In this document: in pieces, positions 1,511 through 18,973 of the stretch
How the letters are laid out: every line of letters starts with the position of its first letter
Position numbering within the stretch: position 1 is the first letter of the stretch
Source of the DNA: Verrucomicrobiota bacterium
Lineage (GTDB): Bacteria; Verrucomicrobiota; Verrucomicrobiia; Limisphaerales; SIBE01
NCBI GenBank assembly: GCA_016871535.1
Contig: VHCZ01000036.1
Span: 1-35,539 of the forward strand
DNA length: 35,539 nt
Direction of reading: 5' to 3'
The notes under the pieces: generated by a model
The model's database searches: none
Told to the model about the DNA's origin: nothing
What the model saw: the letters and a program-made list of their open reading frames with translations, nothing else
Made by a program: the position numbers and the translations under genes

Positions 1511-2200
1511 CTATGGGCCCGGGATCGCGATGGAGCTTGGCGCCGAGTAGATGGAAGCGCCCTGGCTGGGCCGATACCGGACGATCAACGTGATTTTGTC
1601 GTCGCGCGGTTTGTCGGTGCCCCAATTGAGCGTGAGCCGATAGCTCACGCCGATGGCTGTATCGAACGCAAACCGTTTCAGTTCATCCGCCGCGAAGCTC
1701 CAAACGTGGCGGAACGACTGATTGTCCCGACGCAGGTCTTTCACCAGCCCGTCATACATGAGCACGTCCAGCGTGCCGTCCTGGATGGGTTGCGCTTTGA
1801 GATGACGGCGATTCACGGCATAAACCTGGATCGCGAACCCATCGACCCCCGGCGCGGCGTCGAGATTAAGCGGAACCGGCATGGCCAGCACGTTCAGCTC
1901 GTCAATCTGTGTTGAAGACGAACGCTGGGGCGCCGGCGCGCCCGATCGCGGCGTCGAGCAACCCGATAGCGCCAGGCAGAGGAGCGGGAGCACGGCCAAG
2001 AATGCGAACCGCGAAAGCCACGAAAGGCACGAGGTCCAAGCGCCTGGAACCTGGGAGTGGACGTTCCAGTTCTTGGAAACGGGTCCTCTCCACAAGGCTC
2101 TCCACGAACCAACCCACCTCTTCACCCCTCCCAGGAGGGGAACTGAGCTCCGCGACGTTGGACGGAGCTCCCCTCGTAGGAGAGGAAGGGGTGGGTTCAT
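1511..2200 (-). CDS. Putative lipoprotein of unknown function at the end of the secretion cluster
   Basis: The C-terminal ~150 residues look like a real secreted protein. A hydrophobic stretch 'FLAVLPLLCLALSGC' ends in a clear lipobox (LALSGC, Cys codon at 1958-1960). A Pro/Ser/Gln-rich linker and a domain with 'FAIQVYAVN', 'GTLDVLMYDG' and 'ITLIVRYRP' follow. I do not recognise the family. The start is unclear. No ATG, GTG or TTG lies at a normal distance before the lipobox except a TTG that would leave only 13 residues. The nearest upstream ATG (2200) lies in a palindromic repeat and would place the Cys near residue 81. The reading frame stays open through repeats up to 2602. I infer that repeat insertion displaced or rebuilt the original 5' end. 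It sits downstream of the secretin gene on the same strand and may serve as a pilotin-like or accessory lipoprotein, but nothing in the sequence proves that. Confidence 0.55.
   Translation of the reverse strand: MNPPLPLLRGELRPTSRSSVPLLGGVKRWVGSWRALWRGPVSKNWNVHSQVPGAWTSCLSWLSRFAFLAVLPLLCLALSGCSTPRSGAPAPQRSSSTQIDELNVLAMPVPLNLDAAPGVDGFAIQVYAVNRRHLKAQPIQDGTLDVLMYDGLVKDLRRDNQSFRHVWSFAADELKRFAFDTAIGVSYRLTLNWGTDKPRDDKITLIVRYRPSQGASIYSAPSSIAIPGP
2104..2200. repeat. Palindromic element, core C
   Basis: An imperfect inverted repeat pairs 2112-2152 (from 'acccacctcttcacccctcc' to 'gagctccg') with 2163-2196 (from 'cggagctcccctcg' to 'ggggtgggt'). The 'gggttcatggg' head follows directly at 2193-2203. This core differs in sequence from cores A and B but carries the same head. 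Confidence 0.75.
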
Positions 2201-2540: not shown

Positions 2541-2598
2541 CTACAATTCGATTTAACCATGCAACAACGTGACTGGCCGCGGTTGGGGCACGCTCTCG

Positions 2599-5500
2599 TC
2601 AATTCCTGGGCGATCGTTTGCCGGGTTTCAGCGCGGGGGCATTGGTCGGTTTGTTCGGGTAGAGCGGGTCGAGGATTTGCCTCTGGAGCGGATCGCGATT
2701 GAATTCCTCGTTGATCGTCGAGCGGTCCAATTGCTCGCGCGTGACCGAAGCCGCGTCGCGTGTTTGTGCGATCACTTCGGCTTTGACCAGCACCTGCGGT
2801 GTCAAAATGATCAGCAGCTCCTTGCGGTCTTCGATCTTCTTGTGGCTCCGGAACAGCGCGCCGAGATACGGAATTCTGCTGAGGAACGGCGTCCGGCTGG
2901 CCCGCGTGTCGTCGGTGGTGCTGATCAAGCCGCCGATGAGAATAGACTGGCCGCTTTGCACGCTCACGGTCGTGGTAGCGCTGCGCTCATTGATGATGGG
3001 CGCTTTGGCGCCGCGTCCCAGCTCGACGTCCGAGCTGGTCAACTGACTGATGCGCGGACCGACGTCCATCTTCACGAATCCATCCGGGCTGATGCGTGGA
3101 GTGACCCTCAATTCGACGCCGACATTTTTGTACGCCACGGTATTGATGCTGTCGCCGAATTGCGTGACACGCGCGTCGGTGATCAACGGCACTTGCTGGC
3201 CGATGTTCACGACGGCTTCCTGGTTGTCCGCGGTCAGGATTTGCGGCCGGCTCAGCACCTGAAGCCGCCCTTCGCTTTCCAAGGCGCGCAACAAAAAGCT
3301 GAAGTTGCTTCCGGTCACGCCGGAGGAAAAACCTCCGAAGTTCTTGAGCGCCTCGGCGGCACCCAGATCCTGACCCGTGCTGAACTGCGGCGTGCCCCTG
3401 GACTGATACGACCAATCGACACCCAATTCGCTGGTGGCATCGAGCGTGACTTCCGCGAGCAACACCTGGATCAACACCTGGAGTTGCGGCTGATCGAGTT
3501 GTTCGATCAACGATTTGACCTGCACAAAATAGCGCGGGCTGGCGGAAATGAGCAGGGCGTTGCTGTTGGTTTCGGCCACGATGGACACCTGTTTTTCCAG
3601 AAGCTCCTGCGCCATGGCCTGGCTTCCCACCGCGGCGCTGATCAGTTGTTGATCCTGCCGCAGAAAATTTCGCAACGCGCCTTCGACGTCGGGCGCCCGC
3701 GAGTTTTTCAGCCGGTACACTTCCGCTTGCCGCTCCTGCGCCGGACTGGAGTCAAGTGCTTGGATGATTTCGGAAGCCAGCGCGACATAGTGTTCGGCCC
3801 CGCCGACGATCAAGCTGTTCGTGCGCAAGTCCACGGTCAACGTCAGCGTGCTGTCTTCGTGCGTGCCGAATGTGGCGGAGGCGGTTTCTTCCAGTTGCGG
3901 CTCCTCGGGCGCGTTCGGATTGGGCGCCGGTCTGACGAGCGAATATTCAACCGTCTGGTCGTTCGCAGCCTGGGTCGGCGAGCGCTGCAGCCGGAAGAGC
4001 GTCGTCAGGATTGTGGACATCTGACGCGCGTCCGCGTTCTTGAGATTGAAGACACGGATCTTCGCGGCCTGCGCCAGGCTTGCATCCAGCCGGGCGATCA
4101 ACTGCTCCAGCAGCGTCATGTAATCCAGCGGCGCGGACACAATCAGCGAATTGGTGCGCGGGTCCGGCGTGATCAACACCCCTTCCTTCAAAGCTGACGC
4201 CACGAGGTCTTTGCCCTCGGCGGTCCGGGTAATGAACTGAAGCAGCGATTGGCGGCTGGGGCTTTGCTCCGTCAGCGACGCCGGTTTCGTATTTAGAATC
4301 GACGTGAGAATCGACGCCAATTGCGTGGCCCGCGCCTGGACCAGCGGGAAGATGCGAATCTCCGAGACGTTCGCCACCTGGTCCGTATCGAGCTTCTTCA
4401 CCAGTTCCGCGATGCGCTTCAAATCGCTCTGGCCTGCGGAAACCACCAGCGCGTTCAGGCGTTCGTCCACGTTGACGGTGACGGGCGAGGCCGTGCCGGG
4501 GCCGCCGCTGCGGTAAAGGGTCTGCACGGTCTGGGAGACTCGGCGCGCGTCCGCTTTGACCAGTGGAATCACCTGGACTTCGAGGCCCACATCGGCGGCG
4601 CCACTGTCGAGTTGCGCTACCAGCGCTTCCACCATCTGTAAATCTTCCGGCGCCGCTCCGACGATCAGCGCGTTGGCCCAGCTATCGGCCACGACGGTGA
4701 TCGGATCGGGCGGCTGGCCTTGGACAGCCGAAGGGCGCCGGGCGAAAAGCTGGGTCAAGGTCGCCTGCAGTTTGCCCGCCGTCGCCTGCTTCAGCGGGAT
4801 GACGCGGAAGCTGGTCTTCGCCACGATCTCCTTGGAATCCAACTGCGCGATCATGCGATCGACCATCTCGAAGATTTCTTTGCCGCCTGTGATCAACAGC
4901 GTATTCGTTCGGTCATCCGCCGTGACGGTCACGGGCACGCTGCGTTCCGCCGCGCCGGCGACGGATTCCCCCGCGCGCTTGGAGCGGAAGAATTGTTCGA
5001 GCACGCTGGCTAGTTGGGACGCCTTGGCGTGTTTCAACGCGTAAAGCTGAATGTTCCCCGTGTCCGCGCCGGTGTGCGAATCAATCTGTTTGATCAGTTC
5101 TTTCACGACGATCAGGTTCTCCGGACTGGCCGAGACGATGAGCGTGTTGGAGCGCTGATCAACCGTAACGGCGAGGGCGTCGCGCCCGGAACGGCCTCTC
5201 CCGCCGGCGCTGAGGCCGGGGCGGTAAATGCCCTGATCCATCAAAGCGCGGAGCATGGTCGCGGCGCGCTGCGCGTCCGCTTGCTTCAGCGGGAAAATCT
5301 GGATGAGGCCTTCGGCAGCGGTTGGCTCCACATCAATCTTGGCCAGAAGCCCTCTGATCAGCTCCAGGTTCTCCGGATTGGCGGAAATCACCAGGGAGTT
5401 GGACAACGAATCCGGCTCGACGTGAACCTGGTCTTGCGGTGTGGGCGGCTGGCCCGCGATCGCCAGGCTCTGACGCCGCGCCGTGAAGACGCTTTGAATC

Positions 5501-8500
5501 ATGGAAGCCGCGCGCGCAGAATCGTTGTGCCGCAATCCGATTACCGTCAGCGCCACGGCGGGGTTGTCGGGCGGGCGGTCGAGTTTGGCCAGAAGTTCAT
5601 CCAGCGCGCGATTGTCTTCCGGGTTCGCCGCGATCAAGAGGCTGTTGCTGCGCGGGTCGGGGAGAATGATCGGACGGTTGCGCTGAGCGTCCGGCGTGCG
5701 GGCGCCTTGGTAACGCTGGTTGAAAAGCGTGGTGAGCGTAATGCTGAGCGTTTGAGCCGCAGCGTGGCGGAGCGCCACGAGCCGGATTTCGCCTCCGGGC
5801 AATTCGCGATCCAACCGGTCCAGCAAACTGGCAATGATCGCGAAGGCGTTTTCGTTGCCCGATACGATGAGCGTGTTCGTCCGGTCGTCGATGGTCACGT
5901 TCGGGCGGTCCTCGTTGCGGATCTGGTTGGCGTTGGGGCCGCGGTAAAGATCGTTGATCAACTTCTGAATCACCGCCGCGTCCGCGTGCTGCAACGGATA
6001 AAGTCGGATCGTGGAAAAGCCGGATGCGGCGGGAATATCCAGCGTCCGGATCACGTCCTCAATCAGCGGCGTGATGTCGCTGCGGGCCGCGACGATCAGG
6101 ACGTTGGTGGTGTCGTCGGCTTGCATCAGGACGGCCTGACGGCGCGAAGGCCGCTCGGTCGTCCGCGTGCCGTTTCGCCCCAGCACGGTTTGCAGCCGGC
6201 TCACCTGGATGCGCAACGCCTCGGTGCCCGCTGTGGGCGCGCTTTCGGCGAACACTGATTGGAGCAACGGCACGAGCCGCGTCGCGGAAGCGTACTTTAA
6301 CCGGAACACTTTCACTTCCGTGAGCAAGCCTTCCGGCGATGTGGTGTCCATCATCTCCACCACGGCGGAGAGCGCTTTGAGGTTGTCGGGAGTGGAGGCC
6401 AGGATCAGCCGATTGCTCCCGCCGGGCGCAGCTTGCAGCGGATCGGCCATGACTTTGATCGGCTTGGTCAAATCCAGGATGACCGAAACGCCTTGATCGT
6501 TCTGCACGCGCAGCCGCCGGACTTGTTCTTGAAGTTCGCGCGCGGCGGGAGTCACCTCGCCCGTGGCTCCCGGTTTGAGCATTTCGTGCAGCGTGGCCGC
6601 CAGTTGGGGCGCGCGGGCGTTTTTCAAAGGAATAATCTGAACCTCCGCCTCCGCGAAATCCGTCGGCATATCCAGATCGCGAATCATCTTTTCCACCTGA
6701 TCCAGCAACACCGCGCGAGCCACGACGAACAACGCGCCGCCGCGCGGATCTTTGATGACCGCAAGCGGGTCGGCGGGACGCGCCAGATTCAATTGGGTGA
6801 TCATCTGAATCACCAGCGGCAGCAATTTGTCCGGGTGCGCGTTCTGCAATGGGATCAGCCGAAACTCGATCTGAGAGCTGACGCCCGGAACATCCAGTTG
6901 TTTGATGAGCGTTTCGAGCAAAGAGAAATCCGACGGGCGGGCGCGAACAATCAAACTGCGCGTGCGCGGCTCGGCGACGACCGCGATCCGCGAGGGGACG
7001 AGGAGGACTTGACCGGGCTGGCCCGGGGCGGGCACCGGTTGAGGTTGCGCCTGGGGCGGCGGCGCGCCTTGCAAGGGGCGCCGGCCTTGCCCTCGGGCTT
7101 GCGCTCCCGCCTGGCCGGCCATGAACGGTTCCGGGCGGAACAATTCGCTGAGGGTTCGCGCCGCGGCCACAGGATCGGCTTCCTTCAACGGGAACTGGCG
7201 GAACTCGGCATCGTTGCTCACGAAGGACGAGGTCAACTCGAAGATGATCGAATGAATCTGTTTCAACTCACGCCCCGGCCCGGAGAAGATGAGGACGTTG
7301 GCCGTTTTGTCCACGGCCATAACGACGGGAGGCGATTCCGCGTCCTCCGACCTCGGCGCGCCGCCGGCTGCGTCGGTGGAAGTCGTCTTGGCCGGAGGCG
7401 CATTTGTTGAGTCTGGCGGAGCCGGTTTGTCTTGCGGTGTCTCACCGGGCCGGGTGGGAAGTTTGTCCACGACCTTGATCTGGCGTTGGTACATCTGGGG
7501 ATAGAGATTCAGGAGCATTCGCGCCATTTGTTCGGCGGGAACTTTGTCGAGCGTTTCCATCCGGACCTGAATGCTGGTGTCGAGCGCGGCGGCGTCCAGG
7601 CGTTTGATCATGTTCTCGATTTCCGCCATGTCCTCCCGTTTGGCCATGATTGTGACCGAATTCAAACTCGAGTCCGCCTCGACGAAGACTTGATCCGCCC
7701 GGGGCCGGCCGGAGTACAGCGACTCGATCTTCATGGCCACGTCGAACGCGTCCGCATTCACGAGCGAAACGAAACTCACGTCGCGATCGGGGTGGTCTGG
7801 CTTTTGATCGAGCGTGGGAAGGATTTGCTGGATGAGCTTAAAGTCCGCGGCCGTGGCCGAGATGATGAGGCTGTTGGTGCGTTCGTCTTCGGTCACGGTA
7901 ATGTCGTGCCGCGGGCCGCCAATGCCGCCGCTGCCGCTGCCGCCACCCCCGCCCCTGCCGCCTCGGCCGAAAAAGGAGAGGCGGCGGGGCAGGCCTTGAA
8001 GAATCTGATTCAGCGTCCGAGAGACTTCCCTGGCTTTCCCGTTCTCAAGTTTATAGATGTGAACCTCGATCTCGCTGCCGGAGCTTTCTTCGTCGAGCCC
8101 TTGAATGATCTGCATCACATTTTTCACGTCGGGCGGAGCGCCTTCGACAATCAGGCTGTTGGAGCCGACGACGGGCGTGACGTTGACGCGTTTGGGACCG
8201 GCTTGAGGCCCGCGCGCCGACACGGCTTTGTTGACCGCATCCGCCACCATCTCCGCCTGGGATTTCTTCAGATGAACGGTCTGGATGATCGACGAAGAAA
8301 TCGTCTCGGCGCGGTCCAGCGAATTGATCAGTTGCTCAGCAAGGCTCAGGCGTTGCGGCGAGCCCTGGATCACGACGGCGTTCAGCGCGGGAGCGGCGGC
8401 GATGCGCAGCCGGCTGATTTCTCCGGACGGTCCGCGCTGGATCAGGGTTCCCCTCGAACCGCGATTCAACGCCGGGGCCGTGTCTTCGCGCAGCATCGTC

Positions 8501-11500
8501 TCCAGCAACTGCACCATCTGCGCGGCGTCGCTGTGGTGAAGCACGAAGGTGCGGATCTCGCCGGTGACCTCGGCGCGCGTGCGCAGTTCCTTGATCAATT
8601 GATCGATCTGCTGCAACTGCTCCTTCGTGGCGGCCACCATGAGGACATTGGCGGTCGAATCCGCCTCGAACCGAGGCTGAGGCCGCGTCTCGGATTCGCG
8701 GCGCCTTGGATCCTGCCTCTCGGCAAATAAGCGCGCGAGGGTCGGCGCCAACTCCGTGGCGTTGGCTTCGACCAAATGATACGTGCGAAGCTCCAATGTG
8801 CCTCGCGCCGGTTCGAGGTCCAGCGCGCGGATCATTTCCTCGATCCGGCCGAGCACGGATTCGGGCGCTTCCAGAACGAGCGTTTGATCGTCGTTGGACG
8901 CGGTTACTACGACGCGGCGGGCGGGATCATCGGATTGCCGGCTGAACAACTGCGAGATCATTGCGCTTACCGACGCCGCGGAGGTGTGTTTGAGAACGAA
9001 CGCCTTGACCTGGCGAATGGGACGGTCCGCGTCGGTGTCGAGCTGCTTGACCAGGTCCTCGAGGATTTTCAGTTGCGGCTCCGTGGCGGTGATGATCAAG
9101 CGGCTGTTGAAGTCATCGCCCAGGATCACCGCGTCGGCCGTGCCGGCGCCGGGCTGGTTCCTGACCTGGTCCTGGTAAAGTTGCCGGATGCGCAAGGCGA
9201 ACTCACTCGCCCGGCTCGATTTCAGGGCGATGGTTTTCAGGACGCGCGGGGCGGGCTGATTGGAGTCGAGCTGCGCCGCGATTTCGGTGGCTTGTTGAAT
9301 CTCGCCGGGCGAACCCATCAGAATGAGGTCTTTGGTTTTGGGATCGACCATGACCTTGAACGCCGGAACGGTGCGCGGACGAGCGGAAGGTCTCGCCAGC
9401 GCTTCGCTGAGAATGCGAGCCAACGTGTCCGGATCGGCCCATTGACAGCGGAAGATTTTGGTGACCTGGACATACTGGACGGCGGTGCGGAGTTCCTTGA
9501 TTAACTTGTCGATATTCTCCATTTGCTCCTTCGTGGCCGCCACCAGGAGGACGTTGCCGGTCACATCGACTTCAAACCGGGGCTGCGGCGGTGTATCGGT
9601 GGCGCGGCGGCGCGGGTCCTGGCGTTCGGCGAACAAACGGGCCAGGGTCGGCGCCAGATCCGCCGCGTTGGCTTCGACGAGGTGATACGTGCGGACTTCA
9701 ATCGCGCCGCGCGCCGGTTCGAGATCGAGCGTGCGCGCGAGTTCTTCGATCCGCGTCAAGTTGGCTTCTCGGGCTTCCACGACGAGTGTCGAATCATCGG
9801 CGGAAGCCGTCACAATCACCCGGCGCGAGGGATCATCGGCCTGGCGGCTGAACAATTGGGAAATGATATTCGCGACAGAATTGGCGGACATATGTTTCAA
9901 GACGATCGCTTTGAGCTCGCGGGCCGGCCGTTCCGCTTCGGAATCCAGTCGCGCAGCCAGTTCCTCGATCAGCGTCAACTGAGCTTCTGTTCCCGTAATG
10001 ATCAGCCGGCTGTTGAAGTCGTCGCCTAGGATCGTCGCATCGGGCGCGCCGGTGTTGGGCTGGTTTTTCGCCTGGTCGAGGTAAGCCTGACGCAGAATCT
10101 GGGCGAAGAGCGAAGGCCGGCTGGTCTTCAACGGAACCGTTTTCAGAATCCGCTGCGCGGGTTGATTCGAATCGAGTTGCGTCGCGATTTCGATCGCTTG
10201 CTGCACGTCGCCCGGAATGCCCATCAAAATCAGGTCGCGCGTCTTGGGATCGACGGTGACGCGGAAAGGCGGAACGTTGCGCGGACGAAACGGCGGGCGG
10301 CTCAAGCCGTCGCTGAGCAGCCGGGCCAGCACGTCGGGATCGGCCCATTTGCAGCGGAAGATTTTTGTGACCTGGACATTCTCGGACTGGATCGCGCTGG
10401 TTTTGGGGTCGGCGGTGGCGTCGATCTTGGTCACCAGCTTGTCAATAGCGTCCAACTGCCCGGCCATGGGCGCGGAGACGATCAGTCGATTCGTGGGCAG
10501 ATCAACGATCAGACGGGCTTTGGTGGCCGCGGACGCGGAAGGTTCGCGTTCCTCCGCCACACCCGGGATGGCCTCGCGAACCATGCGCGCCAATTCCTGG
10601 GCCGAGATGGTGCGCGGGAAGAAAATTCGGACCTCGCCGACGCGCGAGCCGCTTTGATCCTCGAAGCGTTTGATCAATGTTTCCGCCAGCGTGATTCGCT
10701 CGCCGGGGCCGTACATAACCAGCGTTCGCGAGGCTTCATCGAACACGGCCGTCACATAATCGCTTGGGTCGTCCGGGAGCGCCTCGTAGCGCTTGGACGC
10801 TTGATTGAATTCGACGCGCTTGGGCGCCGTGGCGCTGCCGAAGGTTTTGTTGATCAGATCGGCGACCACGGCGCCGGAGGAGTGGACCAACGAGTAGGCG
10901 CGCATCTGGCGCTGGGCGGGGGAAGCAGTGTCGATTTCGTTCAGGAGTTCGCGGATGCGTTTGATGTTGCCGAGACGGTCCGTGATGATCAGGCCGCGTC
11001 CGCGCGACAACGGCGCGACCGAACCGGCGTTGGAGAGCATCGACGAAACGGCCTGGGCGACATCGGGCGCTTCCAGGTTTTGCAGCGAGAACACGACGGT
11101 GACGACTTCGCCGGGCCTGGCGTCACCCGTCTTGTCCAGCCCGCGCAAGATGCGGAGCGGCATCTGGGGAAGCTCCTTCAAGGTGACCAGGCGCAGATGA
11201 CGCTCGGTTTCGACCAGCATGACGCCTTTCATGGAAAGGATCAGGTTGAGAGTTTCCATGGCTTCGGCGTACGAGTAGGGCTGCGGATCATTGAAGGTGA
11301 TCGTTCCTTCCACCGTGGTGTCGCTGATGAGCGGTTTGTTCGCCATCTGAGCGAAGCGCGTCAGCACATCGATGTAGGGAATGCCGTCGAACTGAAACCG
11401 AGTCGTGCGGTCCGCCGGCTTCACTTCGGCGGAACTCGTGGAAGCTGCGGGCTTTGAGGCGTCCGCGGCGGGGTTGGCGGCGGCGCCGGTTGGAGCGGGT

Positions 11501-11664
11501 TGCGCGGCGGCGACCGCACCCGCGGGCGGCGCGGCTGGAGGATTCGGCTGTTGGGCAACGGTCGGAATGACCGTTGGAGTGGCCTCTGGTTTGTCTTGCG
11601 CGATCAGAGGGTCACACAAGAAGATCAGGAGCAACGCAGCGAGGTATAGATTCACAGTTTTCAT
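2599..11664 (-). CDS. gspD: Giant type II secretion secretin (GspD-like) with about 30 N-domain repeats
   Basis: This would be the outer-membrane channel of the secretion system. I chose the ATG at 11664 because it opens a signal peptide ('MKTVNLYLAALLLIFLC..LIAQ'); the open frame upstream to 11868 is only repeat DNA. After an Ala/Pro linker comes an N0/STN-like domain (residues ~90-170, 'FQFDGIPYIDVLTRFAQMA'). About 30 consecutive Secretin_N-type repeats follow, to about residue 2725. Each has a strand-helix pattern ending in 'VDxRTNSLIVSA...LIxxLD'. Some repeats carry low-complexity insertions: Gly-rich near 1230-1245, Pro-rich near 1405-1440 and 1518-1552. The C-terminal secretin domain spans ~2730-2960, with 'VLIQVLLAEVTLD', 'GVELRVTPRIS', 'SGQSILIGGLIS' and 'KELLIILTPQVLV'. 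Ordinary GspD proteins are about 650-750 residues with N0 plus three N domains, so this 3021-residue protein is roughly four times larger. The frame is intact over 9 kb. No S-domain for a known pilotin is recognisable. Confidence 0.93.
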   Translation of the reverse strand: MKTVNLYLAALLLIFLCDPLIAQDKPEATPTVIPTVAQQPNPPAAPPAGAVAAAQPAPTGAAANPAADASKPAASTSSAEVKPADRTTRFQFDGIPYIDVLTRFAQMANKPLISDTTVEGTITFNDPQPYSYAEAMETLNLILSMKGVMLVETERHLRLVTLKELPQMPLRILRGLDKTGDARPGEVVTVVFSLQNLEAPDVAQAVSSMLSNAGSVAPLSRGRGLIITDRLGNIKRIRELLNEIDTASPAQRQMRAYSLVHSSGAVVADLINKTFGSATAPKRVEFNQASKRYEALPDDPSDYVTAVFDEASRTLVMYGPGERITLAETLIKRFEDQSGSRVGEVRIFFPRTISAQELARMVREAIPGVAEEREPSASAATKARLIVDLPTNRLIVSAPMAGQLDAIDKLVTKIDATADPKTSAIQSENVQVTKIFRCKWADPDVLARLLSDGLSRPPFRPRNVPPFRVTVDPKTRDLILMGIPGDVQQAIEIATQLDSNQPAQRILKTVPLKTSRPSLFAQILRQAYLDQAKNQPNTGAPDATILGDDFNSRLIITGTEAQLTLIEELAARLDSEAERPARELKAIVLKHMSANSVANIISQLFSRQADDPSRRVIVTASADDSTLVVEAREANLTRIEELARTLDLEPARGAIEVRTYHLVEANAADLAPTLARLFAERQDPRRRATDTPPQPRFEVDVTGNVLLVAATKEQMENIDKLIKELRTAVQYVQVTKIFRCQWADPDTLARILSEALARPSARPRTVPAFKVMVDPKTKDLILMGSPGEIQQATEIAAQLDSNQPAPRVLKTIALKSSRASEFALRIRQLYQDQVRNQPGAGTADAVILGDDFNSRLIITATEPQLKILEDLVKQLDTDADRPIRQVKAFVLKHTSAASVSAMISQLFSRQSDDPARRVVVTASNDDQTLVLEAPESVLGRIEEMIRALDLEPARGTLELRTYHLVEANATELAPTLARLFAERQDPRRRESETRPQPRFEADSTANVLMVAATKEQLQQIDQLIKELRTRAEVTGEIRTFVLHHSDAAQMVQLLETMLREDTAPALNRGSRGTLIQRGPSGEISRLRIAAAPALNAVVIQGSPQRLSLAEQLINSLDRAETISSSIIQTVHLKKSQAEMVADAVNKAVSARGPQAGPKRVNVTPVVGSNSLIVEGAPPDVKNVMQIIQGLDEESSGSEIEVHIYKLENGKAREVSRTLNQILQGLPRRLSFFGRGGRGGGGGSGSGGIGGPRHDITVTEDERTNSLIISATAADFKLIQQILPTLDQKPDHPDRDVSFVSLVNADAFDVAMKIESLYSGRPRADQVFVEADSSLNSVTIMAKREDMAEIENMIKRLDAAALDTSIQVRMETLDKVPAEQMARMLLNLYPQMYQRQIKVVDKLPTRPGETPQDKPAPPDSTNAPPAKTTSTDAAGGAPRSEDAESPPVVMAVDKTANVLIFSGPGRELKQIHSIIFELTSSFVSNDAEFRQFPLKEADPVAAARTLSELFRPEPFMAGQAGAQARGQGRRPLQGAPPPQAQPQPVPAPGQPGQVLLVPSRIAVVAEPRTRSLIVRARPSDFSLLETLIKQLDVPGVSSQIEFRLIPLQNAHPDKLLPLVIQMITQLNLARPADPLAVIKDPRGGALFVVARAVLLDQVEKMIRDLDMPTDFAEAEVQIIPLKNARAPQLAATLHEMLKPGATGEVTPAARELQEQVRRLRVQNDQGVSVILDLTKPIKVMADPLQAAPGGSNRLILASTPDNLKALSAVVEMMDTTSPEGLLTEVKVFRLKYASATRLVPLLQSVFAESAPTAGTEALRIQVSRLQTVLGRNGTRTTERPSRRQAVLMQADDTTNVLIVAARSDITPLIEDVIRTLDIPAASGFSTIRLYPLQHADAAVIQKLINDLYRGPNANQIRNEDRPNVTIDDRTNTLIVSGNENAFAIIASLLDRLDRELPGGEIRLVALRHAAAQTLSITLTTLFNQRYQGARTPDAQRNRPIILPDPRSNSLLIAANPEDNRALDELLAKLDRPPDNPAVALTVIGLRHNDSARAASMIQSVFTARRQSLAIAGQPPTPQDQVHVEPDSLSNSLVISANPENLELIRGLLAKIDVEPTAAEGLIQIFPLKQADAQRAATMLRALMDQGIYRPGLSAGGRGRSGRDALAVTVDQRSNTLIVSASPENLIVVKELIKQIDSHTGADTGNIQLYALKHAKASQLASVLEQFFRSKRAGESVAGAAERSVPVTVTADDRTNTLLITGGKEIFEMVDRMIAQLDSKEIVAKTSFRVIPLKQATAGKLQATLTQLFARRPSAVQGQPPDPITVVADSWANALIVGAAPEDLQMVEALVAQLDSGAADVGLEVQVIPLVKADARRVSQTVQTLYRSGGPGTASPVTVNVDERLNALVVSAGQSDLKRIAELVKKLDTDQVANVSEIRIFPLVQARATQLASILTSILNTKPASLTEQSPSRQSLLQFITRTAEGKDLVASALKEGVLITPDPRTNSLIVSAPLDYMTLLEQLIARLDASLAQAAKIRVFNLKNADARQMSTILTTLFRLQRSPTQAANDQTVEYSLVRPAPNPNAPEEPQLEETASATFGTHEDSTLTLTVDLRTNSLIVGGAEHYVALASEIIQALDSSPAQERQAEVYRLKNSRAPDVEGALRNFLRQDQQLISAAVGSQAMAQELLEKQVSIVAETNSNALLISASPRYFVQVKSLIEQLDQPQLQVLIQVLLAEVTLDATSELGVDWSYQSRGTPQFSTGQDLGAAEALKNFGGFSSGVTGSNFSFLLRALESEGRLQVLSRPQILTADNQEAVVNIGQQVPLITDARVTQFGDSINTVAYKNVGVELRVTPRISPDGFVKMDVGPRISQLTSSDVELGRGAKAPIINERSATTTVSVQSGQSILIGGLISTTDDTRASRTPFLSRIPYLGALFRSHKKIEDRKELLIILTPQVLVKAEVIAQTRDAASVTREQLDRSTINEEFNRDPLQRQILDPLYPNKPTNAPALKPGKRSPRN
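8568..10379 (-). repeat. Tandem duplication of a four-domain block inside the secretin
   Basis: Residues ~429-730 and ~731-1032 are two copies of the same four-repeat block. Each copy starts 'VQVTKIFRC(K/Q)WADPD' and runs through 'ILGDDFNSRLIIT' and 'YHLVEANA(A/T)(D/E)LAPTLARLF' to 'LIKELRT'. The DNA offset is 906 bp (302 codons), measured from 'gacctggacat' at 10369-10379 and 9463-9473. Copies have diverged but retain long identical peptides, so this is a more recent expansion than the other N repeats. Confidence 0.9.
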
Positions 11665-11864: not shown

Positions 11865-12878
11865 TCATTCCTTGGGGTTCGCCTGAGCAGCCACCTTCGC
11901 CAGATCCGACGGCAACGCGTCTGCGTTGAGTTGATATTTATCGGCCAGAGTCTGGCCGTGTTCGACGGCCCAGAAATCCGGTCCGATCTTGAGAATCACG
12001 CGCGCGAAGGAAAGCAGCCCCGGCTTTCCTGGCATGGGCCGCGCCCGATAGTCCACGGCGGCAATGTGGCCGTCCGCCCACGCGTCCCCCGGCTTCAAGA
12101 TGTCGAGCCTGTGCGAAGCGAGGTTCATGACGTGGACCTCGGGCGTGCTTCGCCATTCGGAGAGCGACACCACTTTGAGCATTTCCGGCCGGGCCGCCCC
12201 GGGCAGATCGCCACCCGCTGAAGCCGCGGCGTTTTCAGGCGCGCTTCTTCGAATGTAGGGCCGAAAGAGATCGCGCTGGACGATGGTGTCGTAAAGCCGG
12301 CGCTCCGAACTGGCGAGCGTGAGTTTCGGCTTGAGATCCAGGGGAACCACGTCCGGCGCGGCATCGACCACCAGCGTGAGAAACCGCAGCCGGATTTTCG
12401 CCCGGCCCGGTTTGTCGCCCGCGGACACGACGATGTTTTCCAGCCGATGGATTTGCGGACATTGCTCCAATTCAAAGAGCAAGTCCACGATGTGGGGCAG
12501 GGGACCTTCGCCTTGCACGTTCCAGCCGACTTCTTGGGCGCCGCGCAGTTTCCGCGGTCCAACCGGCGTGCGCGCAAATTCGGACTCCGAGAGGCCCAGG
12601 CGAAGGATCAAATCCGTCAGCATTTTTCCGGCGTGAGCCGTGGCGACGTCCGCATTGGTTCCAAATGAAGCCTGGGCCAGGCGTTTCATCTGGTCTTCCG
12701 CAGAAAAGAACGCGCGCCGTTCGTCCTTGATTTGGCGGAGCTTTTCCCGCAGCAGCGCGGTCTGGCGATCGATGTTCTGGAGCGGTTTGACGAACACGTA
12801 TCGGATGCCGAGCGCTGAGGCAAACACAAGAATCAGGCCGCCCACGGCCAGAGCCAGGATTTTCTCGCGTTGGTTCAT
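11865..12878 (-). CDS. PilO/GspM-like inner-membrane protein with a PilP/GspC-like C-terminal part
   Basis: A 337-residue bitopic protein. A single membrane helix spans residues ~6-29 ('ILALAVGGLILVFASALGI'). A coiled-coil stretch follows to about 65, then an alpha/beta region in the style of PilO/GspM. Near residue 200 comes 'RDLFRPYI', the motif that opens the homology region of PilP and GspC, then a compact beta domain ('EVHVMNLASHRLDILKPGDAW'). I infer one chain combining the PilO/GspM role with the PilP/GspC role, linking the inner-membrane ring to secretin N domains. It starts 3 nt after the stop of the PilM/N-like gene, so the two are co-transcribed and probably translationally linked. 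The next gene downstream is the secretin. The family assignment rests on architecture and the short motif, since primary sequence in these families is weakly conserved. Confidence 0.7.
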   Translation of the reverse strand: MNQREKILALAVGGLILVFASALGIRYVFVKPLQNIDRQTALLREKLRQIKDERRAFFSAEDQMKRLAQASFGTNADVATAHAGKMLTDLILRLGLSESEFARTPVGPRKLRGAQEVGWNVQGEGPLPHIVDLLFELEQCPQIHRLENIVVSAGDKPGRAKIRLRFLTLVVDAAPDVVPLDLKPKLTLASSERRLYDTIVQRDLFRPYIRRSAPENAAASAGGDLPGAARPEMLKVVSLSEWRSTPEVHVMNLASHRLDILKPGDAWADGHIAAVDYRARPMPGKPGLLSFARVILKIGPDFWAVEHGQTLADKYQLNADALPSDLAKVAAQANPKE

Positions 12879-12881
12879 GAT

Positions 12882-14849
12882 CTATTGCGTTCCTTGCCTG
12901 CGACCAGCTCCCCTGACCCCGGAGGGGGAGAGGGTGTCCGCAGGACGGGAGAGGGGGAGGTGCGGCTTTGCCTCAGGGGACGCCTCGGCTGGCTTTGCGG
13001 GAGGCGCAATGTCCGGCGCCGGCGGTTCAACTGAATCCTCATCCGCGGGTCGCGACGCCGTTCCTGCTGGTTTCAAATCATATTTCATCTTGCTCGTCAG
13101 GGTCAGCTCGACGCTGGAGCGGAACGGATAACCGAACTTGTCCGTGGCCGGTGTCACGGCGAGCGGCTTGACCTCATAGCCCGCTTCACGCAGGCGTTTG
13201 TCCATCTGCGCGAGAATCTCGCCGTTGCGCGCCTGAACCGAGAGATGAATCATGCCGCGCGCACCGGTCGAAAGCGAAGTCAGATAAACGTCCTGGCTCG
13301 GAGGCAAGAGCGCGCTCAACAGGGCGTAGTGGTCGAGCCAATGGCGTTTCTCCGCCGTCCAGTCCCGGACGACCTTGGCCTTCGCGCGCATGTCGCGAAA
13401 GAGCGGGCGGTTCTTTTCCGCTTGTGTGACCTGAGCTTGAACCTGCTCCTTGATTTGGAGGCGACGGCCCATTTGATACGACCGCAAGCCAGCCAGGCCG
13501 AACAGCAGCAGCGCCCCCACGCCGACCGCGGCGAGCACCTTGATACGCCCCCAATTCCGCGGCACGAGCGGCCGCTTGGGATGCAGGAAATCGAAGGGCA
13601 ACCCTTCCGCATCTTGCGCGCCCAGGGCCAGGCCGAGCGCCGCCAGCGCTCCTGCGCCACTTTCTTTGTCCACGCCTTCGACATTGAACGCTGAGGACGG
13701 CACAAAGCGTTCGCAAGGCATCGGGAAGCGCTGTTGCAGCGCCGACACGAGGGCGGGCTCGGCGCTCGTCCCGCCCACGACGAGGAACTTCGCGACCGGG
13801 CAATGGCGGACGGTGCTCTCGTAGCTGTGCAAGCTGCGCACGATCTCGGTTAAAATGGATGGAATGAAGTCTTTCGACGGCCGAGTAAGGTCAGGGACGG
13901 AGTGGAATCCACTCGTGTCCCTACCGGGTTCATGGGACGGAAGCGTGACTGAAGCCACGCGGCTGAAGACCACGGATTGATCGACGACAAATTCAATCGT
14001 GACTTCGTCGGATCGGAAGGAAATCAGCCCCACGGCGTGAGGTTGATCCGCGGCCGAACGAACTCCGATGCACCGGGCATTGGCGCAAGGGCGCAAACCA
14101 AGAGCGGTCAGCTTCAACCCTGCGGCTTCGGCGATGCGGAGATGGCGTTCGACGATTTCCTTCTTCACGCCTGCGACGAGCACTTCCACTTGATCCGGTG
14201 CAGCGGCAGTCTGGGCCGTGAGCGGAGGGGGCTGCGCGGACGCGGGGGAGAGGTCCACGGGGCTTGCGGCGTTTGCCGGGGCACTGGCCGGCGAATTCTC
14301 GGGAGGGGCAGGGAGGTCACTCGCGATGGTTTCGATCTGGCGGCAGGCTACCGCCGGAACCGGCAGGCTGGAAGCCTGCCCAACGTTTGGCGCCGTCGGC
14401 GTGAGGAAGCGCAGGATGGTAAAATCAACTACCGCCTCTTCGAGTCGGAACGGGAGGTCCTTGCTGATTTGGAATTGGATTATCGAAGCCAATTCTGCAA
14501 TCGAGCCGGCGGCCGGCAGGGTGAGCGTGCGAAGAAAGACCAGTCCGCGCGGCAATGCCATGACGATAGACGCCGGCTTGATGTTCAGGTCTCGCAGCGC
14601 GGCGGAAATCGCTTTGCCCAACTCTTGCGGCTCCGCGCCCGTCGCGCTGAGGGCGGGGTCGAATTTTGTGGAAGCAAATTGGAGAATCGCGGGCTTTCCG
14701 CCGCGACGCCAGGACTGGGCCACGCGTATTGTGCCGCCATCGAGATCAATGACTGTGACGGGACCCTGGCCGGCCCACTTGAACCTGATGCGCTTGCGCC
14801 GGGCCGCGCCAAATCGCGTGGTGTTTTTTGGGATCCGATCAGATGGCAT
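12882..14849 (-). CDS. PilM-PilN-like fusion (GspL-like) assembly protein
   Basis: A 655-residue protein. Residues ~26-410 resemble the actin-like PilM/GspL cytoplasmic domain: 'VTVIDLDGGTIRVAQS' near the N-terminus and 'FLVVGGTSAEPALVSALQ' late in the domain. One membrane helix follows at about 436-458 ('VLAAVGVGALLLFGLAGL'). Then come a coiled coil and a PilN-type ferredoxin-like region with 'LLSALLPPSQDVYLTSLS'. It would dock the ATPase platform to the PilO/P-like protein encoded just downstream. Three stretches look foreign: 'GRDTSGFHSVPDLTRPSK' (13884-13936), 'NVGQASSLPVPA' (about 14349-14389), and the C-terminal tail from 'LPLSRPADTLSPSG' (12882-12958). All three match dispersed repeat DNA and are read in frame. 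Fusion of PilM and PilN is consistent with GspL, which combines both domains. Confidence 0.78.
   Translation of the reverse strand: MPSDRIPKNTTRFGAARRKRIRFKWAGQGPVTVIDLDGGTIRVAQSWRRGGKPAILQFASTKFDPALSATGAEPQELGKAISAALRDLNIKPASIVMALPRGLVFLRTLTLPAAGSIAELASIIQFQISKDLPFRLEEAVVDFTILRFLTPTAPNVGQASSLPVPAVACRQIETIASDLPAPPENSPASAPANAASPVDLSPASAQPPPLTAQTAAAPDQVEVLVAGVKKEIVERHLRIAEAAGLKLTALGLRPCANARCIGVRSAADQPHAVGLISFRSDEVTIEFVVDQSVVFSRVASVTLPSHEPGRDTSGFHSVPDLTRPSKDFIPSILTEIVRSLHSYESTVRHCPVAKFLVVGGTSAEPALVSALQQRFPMPCERFVPSSAFNVEGVDKESGAGALAALGLALGAQDAEGLPFDFLHPKRPLVPRNWGRIKVLAAVGVGALLLFGLAGLRSYQMGRRLQIKEQVQAQVTQAEKNRPLFRDMRAKAKVVRDWTAEKRHWLDHYALLSALLPPSQDVYLTSLSTGARGMIHLSVQARNGEILAQMDKRLREAGYEVKPLAVTPATDKFGYPFRSSVELTLTSKMKYDLKPAGTASRPADEDSVEPPAPDIAPPAKPAEASPEAKPHLPLSRPADTLSPSGVRGAGRRQGTQ
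12907..12958. repeat. Repeat-derived 3' end of the PilM/N-like gene
   Basis: The stretch from 'ctcccctgaccccggagggg' to 'gggagagggggagg' is an imperfect palindrome of C-runs and G-runs, similar in style to core C at 2104-2200. It encodes the last residues of the PilM/N-like protein. The stop codon lies just past it, which suggests insertion altered the C-terminus. Confidence 0.5.
13884..13936. repeat. Core F element inserted in frame in the PilM-like domain
   Basis: The 20-mer at 13891-13910 is identical to 1459-1478. A 'gggttcatggga' head follows at 13926-13937, and 'gggac..gagt' pairs with 'actc..gtccc' as a hairpin. The insert is read as part of the protein without a frameshift. Confidence 0.75.
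14349..14389. repeat. Short hairpin repeat inside the PilM-like gene
   Basis: A 'ggcaggctggaagcctgcc' hairpin (perfect 8-bp arms, 3-nt loop) lies in frame in the coding sequence. The same kind of hairpin stands free at 31189-31204 and 31275-31292. Its protein product 'VGQASSLPVPA' sits in a linker-like Ala/Pro-rich stretch. Confidence 0.55.
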
Positions 14850-15205: not shown

Positions 15206-16819
15206 CTATTCATTTGAGGCCTCCGTTTGGCGAGCGGGTTCCTTGATCGTGTCCATGCCGATGGGCAAGCCGAGCCGCGTCAGGTCGCGCAGGAGCAAAA
15301 TGGCCGGCGGTTGAGCGGCCGTATCGATCACTGCCTCGATCACGCGATACGTGCCGGCGGGGACGCCATACGCCAGCACGTGAAAATGAAATTGGTAACT
15401 GCGTGTCGTCAGAAGCGGCGCGAGTTTCTTGAACGAGTCGGCGGTGACGAGGCCTTCCTGATAAAGCCACGCCGGCGTTCGCCTCGCGTCCTCACTCAAA
15501 CTGACTCGCGCGGAAACAATCGCCTCGGCGAGCGTCGCATCGATTCCCGGCAAAGCGGCGAGGACTTTGGCCGGGGCGGTGTTGAGATTGACGCGTCCGA
15601 TCAACCGGGTTTCGTTGGTCGCGGAACAGCGATCCAACAAGAGAGGCAACTCCGCTTTGCCCACACCGGAGGAGAAATCCTTCACGGCGCCCGTTTCGTC
15701 TTTGAACTTGCCGGAAGCTTCGAGCAGATCTGCCGGATGCGCGAGTTTTTGTCCCTGGCGCCGCATGGCTTCGAGGTAAGTCAGGACGCCCTCCGGCAAT
15801 TCCAGGTTTGAGAGGTCGGCTTTGGAGTCGTTGAGATTCAGCCGGGGCTGGCCATCGTCGCGCACGTTCAAATCGTAACTGAACACGGTGAGCAATGAGC
15901 GGAGACCCGGTTCAAGCTGGGCATCCTGATTGTCCGGTGGAGGCGAGGCGTCGCCATCGTCCTCACCGGGATCGAGGTTGCCGTTCAAGTTGGCGTCTTC
16001 GCCGTAAAGCAGCGCGCCGGTGAATCCGGGCACCCCGAGCAATTCGTCCAGACAAGCCAACTTCCGGTCCGGCGCCGAAACGCTGTTGGTCAGGGTCGTG
16101 AAGAGAGGCTCATTCGTGCTTCCGGGCACGGAGCTCCGGACGGTTGGCGCGTAATCCACCAGCGCTTGGGCGAGCGCCGGAGTCAGGTTAGGAACGCGCT
16201 CCAGGACTGTGGCCTCGGTGTGTGTCACGTTGATGCGGCTTGCTTCGTCATTCAGCCCGAAGCGAATGGGCGCTGCCCCGGGATCGTTGCACGAATACAC
16301 GGAGAAATACCATTGGTTCGCTCCATCATCGACGACGAGTTGATTCTTGAACGCGGCGGCATTGTCTTGCCAGGGCGTGGGATCCGATGGAGATCGGGAG
16401 GCGATGCGCATGGCCTGGTACACGCCGCTCATCGCGGCTGCCCAGGCTTGCTCGCCGCTGACGCCCGTGGCGCTGGCGGTTTTCTCGGAGCGTAGCAAAT
16501 ACAGGACGCTGGCTGCAACCATCGAGGCCAGCATGACGATGACGAGAACGAGAAGCAGAACGAAGGCGTGGGGGCCTTCTGGTGTTGAGGGAAATCGGCG
16601 CCCGGCCAAACTTCCCGAGAACGCCCCATGACAATTTAAGGATTCGCGAGTGCTTTCCATGAACCATTCCTCCGGACTTCGGCCTTTAGGCCGCTTCAAC
16701 GCTCGACGGTGGAGTGCGCGCTGAAGCAGCCTGAAGGCTGCGGTCCGCACGGTTTTCAGTTCATGGGCCGTGAGCAGGTCCGTGAGAAACAGGAGACTTC
16801 CCATGAACAAACAAATCAT
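15206..16819 (-). CDS. gspK: Minor pseudopilin GspK with a repeat-lengthened leader
   Basis: A 537-residue protein with one N-terminal helix at residues ~87-108 ('FVLLLVLVIVMLASMVAAS'), lacking Glu+5 as is usual for GspK. A large globular domain follows, including 'NLTPALAQALVDY', 'RVNLNTAPAKVLAALPGID' (the helix-hairpin-helix region typical of GspK) and 'IDATLAEAIVSARV'. GspK caps the pseudopilus tip with GspI and GspJ. Its ATG at 16819 overlaps the gspJ stop (ATGA). The predicted leader is about 86 residues, whereas GspK leaders are normally very short. Residues ~5-52 are encoded by a core B palindromic element (16653-16808), so the long leader is explained by an in-frame insertion. The next Met, in 'MESTRESL' (near 16660), could be an alternative start. 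The residue before the presumed cleavage site is Ala, not Gly. Confidence 0.87.
   Translation of the reverse strand: MICLFMGSLLFLTDLLTAHELKTVRTAAFRLLQRALHRRALKRPKGRSPEEWFMESTRESLNCHGAFSGSLAGRRFPSTPEGPHAFVLLLVLVIVMLASMVAASVLYLLRSEKTASATGVSGEQAWAAAMSGVYQAMRIASRSPSDPTPWQDNAAAFKNQLVVDDGANQWYFSVYSCNDPGAAPIRFGLNDEASRINVTHTEATVLERVPNLTPALAQALVDYAPTVRSSVPGSTNEPLFTTLTNSVSAPDRKLACLDELLGVPGFTGALLYGEDANLNGNLDPGEDDGDASPPPDNQDAQLEPGLRSLLTVFSYDLNVRDDGQPRLNLNDSKADLSNLELPEGVLTYLEAMRRQGQKLAHPADLLEASGKFKDETGAVKDFSSGVGKAELPLLLDRCSATNETRLIGRVNLNTAPAKVLAALPGIDATLAEAIVSARVSLSEDARRTPAWLYQEGLVTADSFKKLAPLLTTRSYQFHFHVLAYGVPAGTYRVIEAVIDTAAQPPAILLLRDLTRLGLPIGMDTIKEPARQTEASNE
16653..16808. repeat. Core B element inserted in frame in the gspK leader
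   Basis: Direct repeats 'ctttccatgaac' (16653-16664) and 'cttcccatgaac' (16797-16808) are 144 bp apart, exactly 48 codons. Core B between them (16661-16762) matches 1261-1356 and 2241-2342. It is read as 'TAHELKTVRTAAFRLLQRAL', which parallels the peptide frame of the 1241-1405 copy. Confidence 0.85.
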
Positions 16820-17742
16820 GGCAATTCCTCCTCGAACAGCGCGTCCGGCTGGTTGGATAACGCAGACGAAGAATGCCCTGGCAAATAGATGACGCGGCGA
16901 AAAACTTCAGGCGGATACGGATCCGGCTGATCCGGCGTTGGTTCTTCCGGCAACGGTTCGGCGCCCAGGCTCACTTCGACGCCCGCGGGGAGTTCCGGCG
17001 CGCTCCACGAATCCAGCCAGGCCGCGCCGTTCCAGTATCGGAAGCGGAGATAGCGGAATTGATCGATCGTCATGGGGGCACGCCGCGCCGCGGCCGCGTT
17101 GGTGGACGACAAGTCAGTTTCCTCCACCAGTTCAACGGGTCGGTGCAGCAACGGTTCTTCAGAACGCGTCAAACCGGAGACGTTCGTTTCACCAGGCGCG
17201 CGAAGCGCCGCGTAGCGAATCAACCGGAAAGGAGGGCCGGCCGCGGGCGCGACCTCCGGGGCATTTGTCCAACCTGCAAAGTTTGGCAGTTCAAGCCGCA
17301 CGAATTCCAGTGTCTCAGATGTGCCGGTGAGTCCGACCTGCATGGACTCGCAGCGTTGCGCGTTGCTCAGGTCAGCCGTCAGCCGATCCAGCAGCAGGCG
17401 CACGGCGGATATCTTCGATGTCTCATAGAAAAGCTGGACGCGCAGATTCGCGGCCTGCGTGTAGAAGAACAACACGACCGCGAGCATGCCCGCGGCGATG
17501 GCGACCGCCAGCAGCACCTCCAGCAAAGTGAACGCGCGAGTGCCTTCCCATGGACCTGCCGGTAGGGCGAGGCTGTCCCCAGCGAGCCGGTCGGGACGTG
17601 TTCCAAGCACGTGGAGCGGCTCGCCGGGACGGACTCGCCCTACCGGCGACCGGTTCGTGGGCCGAGTGCTTGGTTCCGAGACCCAGGGACCTTCCCATGA
17701 ACGGTCCGGGCATGTTCCAAACTCTTTTAGTTCAATGTCCAT
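16816..17742 (-). CDS. gspJ: Minor pseudopilin GspJ with an in-frame palindromic insertion
   Basis: A 308-residue type IV pilin-like protein. The prepilin signal is 'TRA-FTLLEVLLAVAIAAGM', with cleavage expected before Phe71, Glu at +5, and Ala where Gly is usual. The C-terminal domain carries 'FRYLRFRYWNGAAWLDSWS', a pattern common in GspJ. It would sit at the tip of the pseudopilus. The 70-residue leader is unusually long. Residues ~16-64 ('SEPSTRPTNRSPVGRV' to 'ALPAGPWEG') are encoded by a palindromic element that matches the 138-bp tandem unit at 1-1240, read in one of its two open frames. A 5' spacing of 14 nt to gspI and a 4-nt overlap with gspK place it in the operon. Whether the prepilin peptidase can process such a leader is unknown. 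Confidence 0.87.
   Translation of the reverse strand: MDIELKEFGTCPDRSWEGPWVSEPSTRPTNRSPVGRVRPGEPLHVLGTRPDRLAGDSLALPAGPWEGTRAFTLLEVLLAVAIAAGMLAVVLFFYTQAANLRVQLFYETSKISAVRLLLDRLTADLSNAQRCESMQVGLTGTSETLEFVRLELPNFAGWTNAPEVAPAAGPPFRLIRYAALRAPGETNVSGLTRSEEPLLHRPVELVEETDLSSTNAAAARRAPMTIDQFRYLRFRYWNGAAWLDSWSAPELPAGVEVSLGAEPLPEEPTPDQPDPYPPEVFRRVIYLPGHSSSALSNQPDALFEEELP
17544..17699. repeat. Core A element inserted in frame in the gspJ leader
   Basis: Direct repeats 'cttcccatg' lie at 17544-17552 and 17691-17699, 147 bp apart (49 codons). The palindromic core runs from 'ggtagggcgag' (17561-17571) to 'ctcgccctacc' (17634-17644), the same core as in the tandem array. Confidence 0.88.
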
Positions 17743-17756
17743 TCCATGATTCGATT

Positions 17757-18266
17757 TCAGAATGGCAAAGCGGGAATCGACCGATCGTCCAGCGTCGCAG
17801 GCGGACTGTTGGTCGAGGGTGTCAACGCGCCGGCGGGGTGCGGGACGATGAACTGAGTCAACCGCCGCACGATGGGCCGGGTATCATGGCGCACGATGAC
17901 CTCCACGTTGCGCAGCGGCAGGCCGCTCTCGGAGGCATCGTCGATCGGCGAAACTTGAATTTGCCAGGTCCACATTTGAAAGGACGCCTCAAACGGTTCC
18001 GGTCCGGCCGACTCGACCGGCTTGATCCCCATCTGTAATTCGGACAAAAGCGAAATCGCAAGGTTGCTGGCGTGAACATTCAAACGCAACCGCTCGGTTT
18101 CCTGGACCGAAGCGTTGAGTCCGCCCGTGATGACGGTGGCGGCGAGGACAAAGAAAGACAGAGCCAGGACAACCTCCAGCAGCACGGACGCGTTATTCGT
18201 GGACCTCGCTGCGGGAATGGGTCGTGGCCATCGTGATCTGGAGGTTTTGGCGGAGACGCAACGCAC
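17757..18266 (-). CDS. gspI: Minor pseudopilin GspI
   Basis: A 169-residue pseudopilin. After a 26-residue basic leader comes 'SVLLEVVLALSFFVLAATVI', with Glu at +5 of the mature protein and Ala26 before the cleavage site in place of Gly. 'NLAISLLSELQMGI' and a beta-rich C-terminus ('LRNVEVIVRHDTRPIVRRL') fit GspI. It would start the tip complex with GspJ and GspK, which are encoded directly downstream. Gaps of 20 nt to gspH and 14 nt to gspJ indicate one transcript. The assignment to GspI over another minor pseudopilin rests on gene order and size. Confidence 0.8.
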   Translation of the reverse strand: MRCVSAKTSRSRWPRPIPAARSTNNASVLLEVVLALSFFVLAATVITGGLNASVQETERLRLNVHASNLAISLLSELQMGIKPVESAGPEPFEASFQMWTWQIQVSPIDDASESGLPLRNVEVIVRHDTRPIVRRLTQFIVPHPAGALTPSTNSPPATLDDRSIPALPF

Positions 18267-18286: not shown

Positions 18287-18973
18287 TTACTCAGCCACGG
18301 TCAAGCTGGAGTCTTGAATTCGCTTGTGACCATCCGCCTCGCTCTCTCCTTTGCTGTCGGAGGTCACTTCACGACAAATGAGTCCGGTCAATCCCAGCAC
18401 CCGCACGGTGACGCGCCGGTCGTCGTCGCCATCGCGCGCCGCCAGAACAATCTCCGCGGAGTCGCTCGACCCGTCCGGATTGAAGGTGATGGGCGTGGAT
18501 TCCGCTGCCAAGGCCCATTCATCGCCTTCTTCGATCGTGCTGGGGGCGGACGCGTCGGGCGCAGAGGAAGTGTCGCTGGAGTCGAGCAGCCGAATTTGCT
18601 CCACGCTCACGTGTTCGCCGAATCCGTCGAGCTCCCACTTCGCGCTGGAAAGGTCCTGAAAAACTTCCGGTTCGTCGAGCGGTTCCGGCTCCCATAAGAC
18701 GCGGACGGGCTTGTGCGGTTCGGTGGTCTGCGCCTCTTGTGTAAAAGCCACGCGGACGCGCCGGCCCGTGTTCGCCGCTTCCGCGCGCGCAAACCTCAGA
18801 ATGCTCTCCAGGCGCACGGCTCCCTGGTCGAGATTACATCCGCGGCTGGTGGGGCCCAAACTCACAATCGCCGCCCCCAAAAAGAGCATGAAAAGCGAAG
18901 CCGCCAGCAGCGTTTCGAGCAGCGTGAATCCGCGGCGAGAGCATCCCGGGTTTTTGCTGGTGCGAGTTATCAT
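18287..18973 (-). CDS. gspH: Minor pseudopilin GspH
   Basis: A 228-residue pseudopilin with the prepilin motif 'SRRG-FTLLETLLAASLFML' (Gly15, Phe16, Glu at +5). A GspH/FimT-like domain with 'LESILRFARAEAANTGRRVR' and 'ITFNPDGSSDSAEIVLAAR' follows, the latter resembling the 'F.p.G....i.l' segment common in GspH. The protein would join the pseudopilus shaft to its tip. It lies between gspG (22-nt gap) and gspI (20-nt gap), the canonical order. Confidence 0.85.
   Translation of the reverse strand: MITRTSKNPGCSRRGFTLLETLLAASLFMLFLGAAIVSLGPTSRGCNLDQGAVRLESILRFARAEAANTGRRVRVAFTQEAQTTEPHKPVRVLWEPEPLDEPEVFQDLSSAKWELDGFGEHVSVEQIRLLDSSDTSSAPDASAPSTIEEGDEWALAAESTPITFNPDGSSDSAEIVLAARDGDDDRRVTVRVLGLTGLICREVTSDSKGESEADGHKRIQDSSLTVAE

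Follow-up and report, generated by a model that had tools for sequence, protein, structure and literature searches.

The window analysed here, a stretch of 35,539 nucleotides from a Verrucomicrobiota bacterium, encodes a GspD secretin of the type II secretion system (T2SS) that carries a selected, ordered array of 30 N domains, and relatives with 25-56 N domains are found in one Verrucomicrobiota order and in some Planctomycetota. We consider it fairly probable that this T2SS GspD, enlarged by tandem duplication of N domains, forms a continuous tube of stacked rings across a widened periplasm. The gene and its parts are as follows.

2599..11664, minus strand: giant GspD-like secretin gene, an intact open reading frame of 3021 aa (Pfam and trained profile)
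11599..11664, minus strand: signal-peptide-like start MKTVNLYLAALLLIFLCDPLIA, judged by eye from the sequence
11200..11367, minus strand: N0 domain, residues 100-155 (PF21305)
3484..11133, minus strand: 30 contiguous N (Secretin_N) domains, residues 178-2727 (Pfam and trained profile)
8578..10386, minus strand: two tandem copies of a four-domain block, one formed by domains 4-7 at 9481-10386 and the other by domains 8-11 at 8578-9480
2788..3285, minus strand: C-terminal secretin (barrel) domain (PF00263)

The uninterrupted frame of 3021 codons starts with MKTVNLYLAALLLIFLC..., and an alternative upstream ATG at 11868, which would give 3089 aa, is less likely than the start at 11664, from which the protein begins signal-peptide-like. 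The N0 domain is of the GspD type (PF21305, E 2.8e-6, 27.5 bits against a cut-off of 27), and the same family scored 30.0 bits in the relative L043 and 25.4 bits, slightly under the cut-off, in L046. Pfam recognised 28 Secretin_N stretches (E 4.5e-286), and a profile trained on the repeats of the window and later broadened with relatives recognised 30 full N domains separated by gaps of at most 15 aa. On two Planctomycetota giants, the Pfam and trained-profile counts were 38 and 39, and 52 and 53, respectively. The barrel domain (residues 2794-2959) was matched by PF00263 with E 3.9e-50 in the Pfam scan and 1.4e-51 in the genome search, and the Pfam scan of the protein gave no AMIN domain. By its defining testable features, the window secretin is a member of the GspD family. 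A sequence-only reading had described an intact GspD-like protein of 3021 residues at these coordinates, with an N0 domain, about 30 Secretin_N repeats and a normal C-terminal barrel, and had proposed a profile search and a survey of related genomes as checks. The frame, the identity and both end domains were confirmed, the two repeat counts agree with its estimate, and the repeats proved to be mostly Secretin_N and not another family.

The gene is real and is no artefact of assembly or annotation, since the same 30 domains are present in L036, a second species of the genus (full-length match, with 89% identity in the best tblastn segment), the uninterrupted frames of relatives reach 5155 aa, and a Planctomycetota giant of 4634 aa lies within a single contig of 3,617,591 bases. 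Within the array, each of domains 4-7 is 61-77% identical to its counterpart among domains 8-11, and this recent duplication is common to the window and the sister species L036. When 293 genomes of the window's order were searched with the last 400 residues of the giant, the family was found in 86 of them at E 1e-79 or better, and the split was clean, as the next matches were mostly frames of about 400 residues. Intact giants have 25-56 N domains, with 43 being the commonest number, and no intact family member with fewer than 25 was found. Two candidates for short members (G526 and G568) were rejected because their N domains continue in other frames beside the barrel frame, which makes them broken giants. 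In a sample of 388 genomes of the phylum, mostly outside the order, no other giant was present among the approximately 150 best matches listed, and the largest other frame had 1347 residues. In Planctomycetota, the phylum of L055, seven of 294 genomes carried frames of 4178-5073 residues. The survey proposed earlier thus showed that frames with 25-56 N domains recur in many assemblies. Those giant-bearing relatives that have names are metagenome-assembled genomes (MAGs) of Verrucomicrobiota (Limisphaerales, Pedosphaera) and Planctomycetota (Phycisphaerae). Eight giant-bearing contigs (L044, L047, L053, L038, L039, L045, L048 and L056) are labelled Klebsiella pneumoniae, Proteobacteria bacterium or Akkermansia muciniphila; they look like mislabelled MAGs, their giants being closely similar in sequence to the Limisphaerales/Pedosphaera type.

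The genome of the window has five other secretin loci, and their open frames are far shorter. In this genome, another secretin (L110, G000:C15:33000-38000) is split over adjacent open reading frames at about 619-2545 and 2588-3839, of which the first encodes 642 aa with approximately three N domains and no barrel, and the second 417 aa comprising a single N domain and the barrel. L108 is split in the same manner, into 705 and 503 aa, and the many secretin frames of about 400 aa in the order are probably of this split type.

The giant secretin is the last core gene of an operon with the order GspE-F-G-H-I-J-K-L-M-D on one strand, and it is followed by a lipoprotein gene.

21494..23161, minus strand: GspE ATPase (TIGR02533, 634.6 bits, above cut-off)
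20278..21486, minus strand: GspF (PF00482, E 2.1e-54)
18996..19514, minus strand: GspG major pseudopilin (PF08334, E 1.5e-19)
18287..18973, minus strand: GspH (PF12019, E 5.6e-10)
17757..18266, minus strand: GspI (TIGR01707, E 4.8e-7, under cut-off; operon position)
16816..17742, minus strand: GspJ (PF11612, E 8e-4, under cut-off; operon position)
15206..16819, minus strand: GspK (PF03934, E 8.1e-7)
12882..14849, minus strand: GspL/PilM-like protein (PF11104, E 5e-15)
11865..12878, minus strand: GspM with an additional conserved C-terminal domain from about residue 200 (NF040576)
1511..1960, minus strand: lipoprotein directly downstream of the giant, mature part from the Cys codon at 1960; signal peptide to about 2030

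The operon is of the T2SS type, as GspG and GspK score above the Pfam cut-offs and GspE above that of TIGR02533. GspI, GspJ and GspM (NF040576, E 3.7e-6 across residues 7-153) are under the curated cut-offs, yet they stand in canonical order and are conserved, and the gene order of the operon is kept in relatives including Planctomycetota. A type IV pilus secretin (PilQ) was considered and rejected because the giant has no AMIN domain and lies in a T2SS-type operon. No GspC, the inner-membrane partner with an HR domain, was recognised in the window. The extra C-terminal domain of GspM, which begins near R-D-[ILV]-[LF]-R-P-Y, is present in the giant-bearing operons checked and is conserved as far as Planctomycetota, and it gave no match to Pfam families or PDB sequences. 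These comparisons gave no support for a GspC hidden in it; the domain could be a stand-in for GspC. Elsewhere in the window, a 477-aa open reading frame (24740-26173, minus strand) contains two complete adenylate kinase domains in tandem, with the ADK lid family in the second copy only, and a protein with an N-terminal methylation (pilin-like) motif is encoded at 31385-32116 on the plus strand, off the T2SS operon and opposite to it.

The lipoprotein directly downstream is the end of a 363-aa open reading frame (1511-2602), which is itself an over-call. It has the lipobox LALSGC, the cysteine of which was seen in nearly all orthologues by pattern reading, and an orthologue adjoins the giant in nearly all loci. 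No sequence match was found in Pfam or the PDB. The AlphaFold model is a beta sandwich (pLDDT 86.9), and its structural matches are mostly generic Ig-like folds (Z of 8.7 or less). Like the secretin pilotins (PulS/OutS, AspS, TadD and BfpG), it is a small lipoprotein encoded with a secretin or serving it; unlike them, it is modelled as an Ig-like beta sandwich, and no known pilotin fold was among the structural matches listed. The lipoprotein may aid outer-membrane targeting of the secretin or brace the tube.

For the origin of the array, an unrooted tree was built from the barrel region alone with 37 giants and 27 ordinary secretins, without seven long-branched, duplicate or outlying rows that were removed after the first run; L112 and two ordinary Planctomycetota secretins are not in this tree. 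A branch with 99/99 support parts the giants from the ordinary secretins, and the giants would form one clade if the tree is rooted within the ordinary secretins. The Verrucomicrobiota giants are a single clade (99/93) nested among the Planctomycetota giants. In L063 and L055, which belong to different phyla, the last 15 N domains are collinear and are reciprocal best matches one to one, with 41-62% identity. In the group L077-L081 divergence is so great that clear matches are limited to the last two domains. An independent origin in Planctomycetota is supported neither by the tree nor by domain order. By these comparisons, the enlargement by tandem N-domain duplication apparently happened once, and vertical descent and transfer are not distinguishable from these data as the route of passage between the phyla.

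Domain order and number are conserved between families of the order, and the 43-domain families align at about 62-66% identity with zero domains gained or lost. Changes in domain number are mostly located in the middle of the array. Very recent duplications of two domains (79-99% identical) are present in L067 (domains 17-20) and in L038 and L045 (domains 15-18), which indicates that array length is still changing by whole-domain steps. The recent duplications are almost only at even offsets (2, 4, 6, 8, 10). When copies of more than 50% identity were removed, most proteins showed no even-odd pattern; it was clear in L059 alone and weaker in L043. Single-domain gains or losses also occur, and we do not claim a parity rule by which rings come in pairs.

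The array is strongly constrained along its whole length. Between the window and L036, dN is 0.059 and dS is 0.81 (dN/dS of about 0.07), and per-domain pN/pS over the 30 domains has a median of 0.096 and a maximum of 0.25, with a similar value for the barrel; judged from these coding sequences, every N domain is under purifying selection. The junctions, measured between a domain's end and the first strand of the domain that follows, are 12-14 residues long in 1742 of 1872 cases (93%), and in ordinary relatives they are 12-13 residues long in 54 of 56. Nearly all loop inserts lie at a single site, which is located between helix 1 and strand 2. Each ring has its own insert length, and these lengths persist from Verrucomicrobiota (L063: ...27, 16, 27, 2, 7, 4, 7, 10, 7, 2, 3, 26, 38, 14) to Planctomycetota (L055: 28, 19, 27, 1, 7, 4, 7, 13, 8, 0, 4, 27, 40, 14). 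Taken together, the uniform junctions, the ring-specific inserts at a single site, the conserved domain order and the purifying selection argue for an ordered ring stack rather than floppy arms.

Structure prediction was carried out with AlphaFold2 for the last eight N domains and the barrel (residues 2029-3021, 18 sequences), and each modelled repeat has the strand-helix-strand-strand-helix order of a beta-alpha-beta-beta-alpha N domain. A mean pLDDT of 62.6 and a pTM of 0.30 make the individual domains credible but not the way in which they are arranged. The best PDB matches of the model are T2SS secretins, namely GspD (5zdh, Z 13.4, 356 residues aligned, rmsd 8.8) and the N0-N1-N2 tandem of XcpQ (5mp2, Z 11.0, 170 residues, rmsd 4.5).

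From these features we infer a ring stack. Each N domain would join the corresponding domains of the other 12-15 subunits in a ring, in the manner of ordinary GspD and Thermus PilQ, and the rings would stack beneath the barrel as one tube hanging from the outer membrane. Such a tube would carry folded substrates, driven by the GspG pseudopilus, across a widened, invaginated periplasm, and the ring-specific loop inserts may form internal constrictions like the glycine-rich loops in the N1 ring of PilQ. PulD, which has the four N rings N0-N3, extends about 20 nm into the periplasm (PMC6882859), and Thermus PilQ, which has six rings, measures 35 nm in total, with glycine-rich loops of ring N1 as a second gate (PMC5745081). 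Using a rise of 2.5-3.5 nm per ring, estimated from the published PulD and PilQ stacks, the tube would be approximately 75-105 nm deep with the 30 rings here and approximately 110-150 nm deep with 43 domains. In bacteria of the PVC group, the periplasm is described as extended through inner-membrane invaginations (PMC3660258), and strain Ellin514, a member of Verrucomicrobia subdivision 3, has an outer compartment that is wide and poor in ribosomes (PMC2647929), which was later interpreted as enlarged periplasm (PMC3422733). A tube of such length could fit in an extended periplasm of the kind described in those bacteria. The sequence-only reading had correctly pointed out that a channel of this kind would be deeper than a usual periplasm, and it had offered a deep periplasm, folded-back repeats, flexible arms or substrate holding as ways out. 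The first, as an ordered stack, is favoured by the junctions, the domain order, the selection and the PVC periplasm, and the others are less favoured.

Some observations count against the tunnel or limit it. The pseudopilin GspG is of ordinary length (172 aa), and the low pTM gives no model of packing. Domain number varies two-fold among relatives (25-56), which speaks against a strict membrane-to-membrane ruler and disallows it unless periplasm depth varies too. In addition, given the five other secretin loci with far shorter frames in the same genome, the whole periplasm cannot be beyond the reach of shorter secretins.

The same variation in domain number would suit a protein in which ring formation is confined to the N domains closest to the barrel and the rest are flexible or folded-back arms, reaching the inner-membrane platform or the peptidoglycan like tethers. 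The lack of confident AlphaFold packing between domains and the flexibility of N0-N2 in earlier structures of several secretins (PMC6882859) point the same way. However, junctions as short and uniform as those of ordinary relatives, the strict conservation of domain order and ring-specific inserts, and purifying selection on all domains would not be expected of such arms, and we regard this arrangement as rather unlikely. The array might also be a wide basket or reservoir that holds many substrates before release, with the domains as substrate-binding sites and not as a tunnel wall. T2SS models place substrate uptake in the secretin vestibule, and the conserved sequence and insert length that each position has of its own could mean position-specific binding. 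Nothing was found that ties the domains to substrates, though, and a basket is hard to separate from a tunnel that binds its substrates; this possibility seems to us unlikely.

Length without function, in which tandem duplicates that assemble harmlessly accumulate by a neutral ratchet, would account for the recent duplications of two- or four-domain blocks and for size variation that is mostly confined to the middle of the array, but it is very improbable in view of the strong purifying selection on all domains, the 15 domains conserved one to one across two phyla and the minimum of 25 N domains among the intact members found. An assembly or annotation artefact, with collapsed repeats or a chimeric frame, might be suspected in a 460-contig assembly such as the window's genome; its probability is practically nil, as the family occurs in many independent assemblies, including the single-contig genome, and dN/dS is low.

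The ring-stack tube favoured here would extend a known design. Giants share with GspD, PulD and XcpQ the N0 domain, the tandem beta-alpha-beta-beta-alpha N domains, the barrel and a gene in the GspE-M operon. They differ in having 25-56 N domains where ordinary proteins have three, in being about five times longer, and in an operon with an Ig-like-model lipoprotein gene, an extra C-terminal domain on GspM and no recognised GspC. PilQ of Thermus thermophilus, the longest structurally resolved ring stack that we found, also has extra N rings, ring pairs and glycine-rich insert loops as a second gate (PMC5745081), but it is a secretin of type IV pili and DNA uptake with 757 residues and six N rings, whereas the giant combines N0 with 30 N domains and is encoded in a T2SS operon. 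The nearest proteins by barrel sequence are ordinary Planctomycetota and Verrucomicrobiota secretins of up to 1364 aa, which have the same N-domain junction length; they have mostly 3-4 and at most about eight N domains, and a 99/99 branch sets them apart from the giants. The openly licensed literature searched gave no description of giant secretins, and the giant is apparently newly distinguished by its ring number, its apparent single origin and its partners.

Secretins are usually treated as N0 plus a few N rings, with a depth of about 20 nm in an ordinary periplasm. Arrays of as many as 56 N domains, with positions conserved between two phyla, would mean that this ring unit can be lengthened to suit a very different envelope, and the giant secretin links a gene with the enlarged periplasm of planctomycetes and verrucomicrobia, which has long been debated. 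A stacked arrangement predicts long rods beneath the outer membrane, longer in proportion to the number of domains. If it is true, no secretin conduit known so far would be longer than the giant, which might also serve as a molecular marker for the depth of the periplasm.
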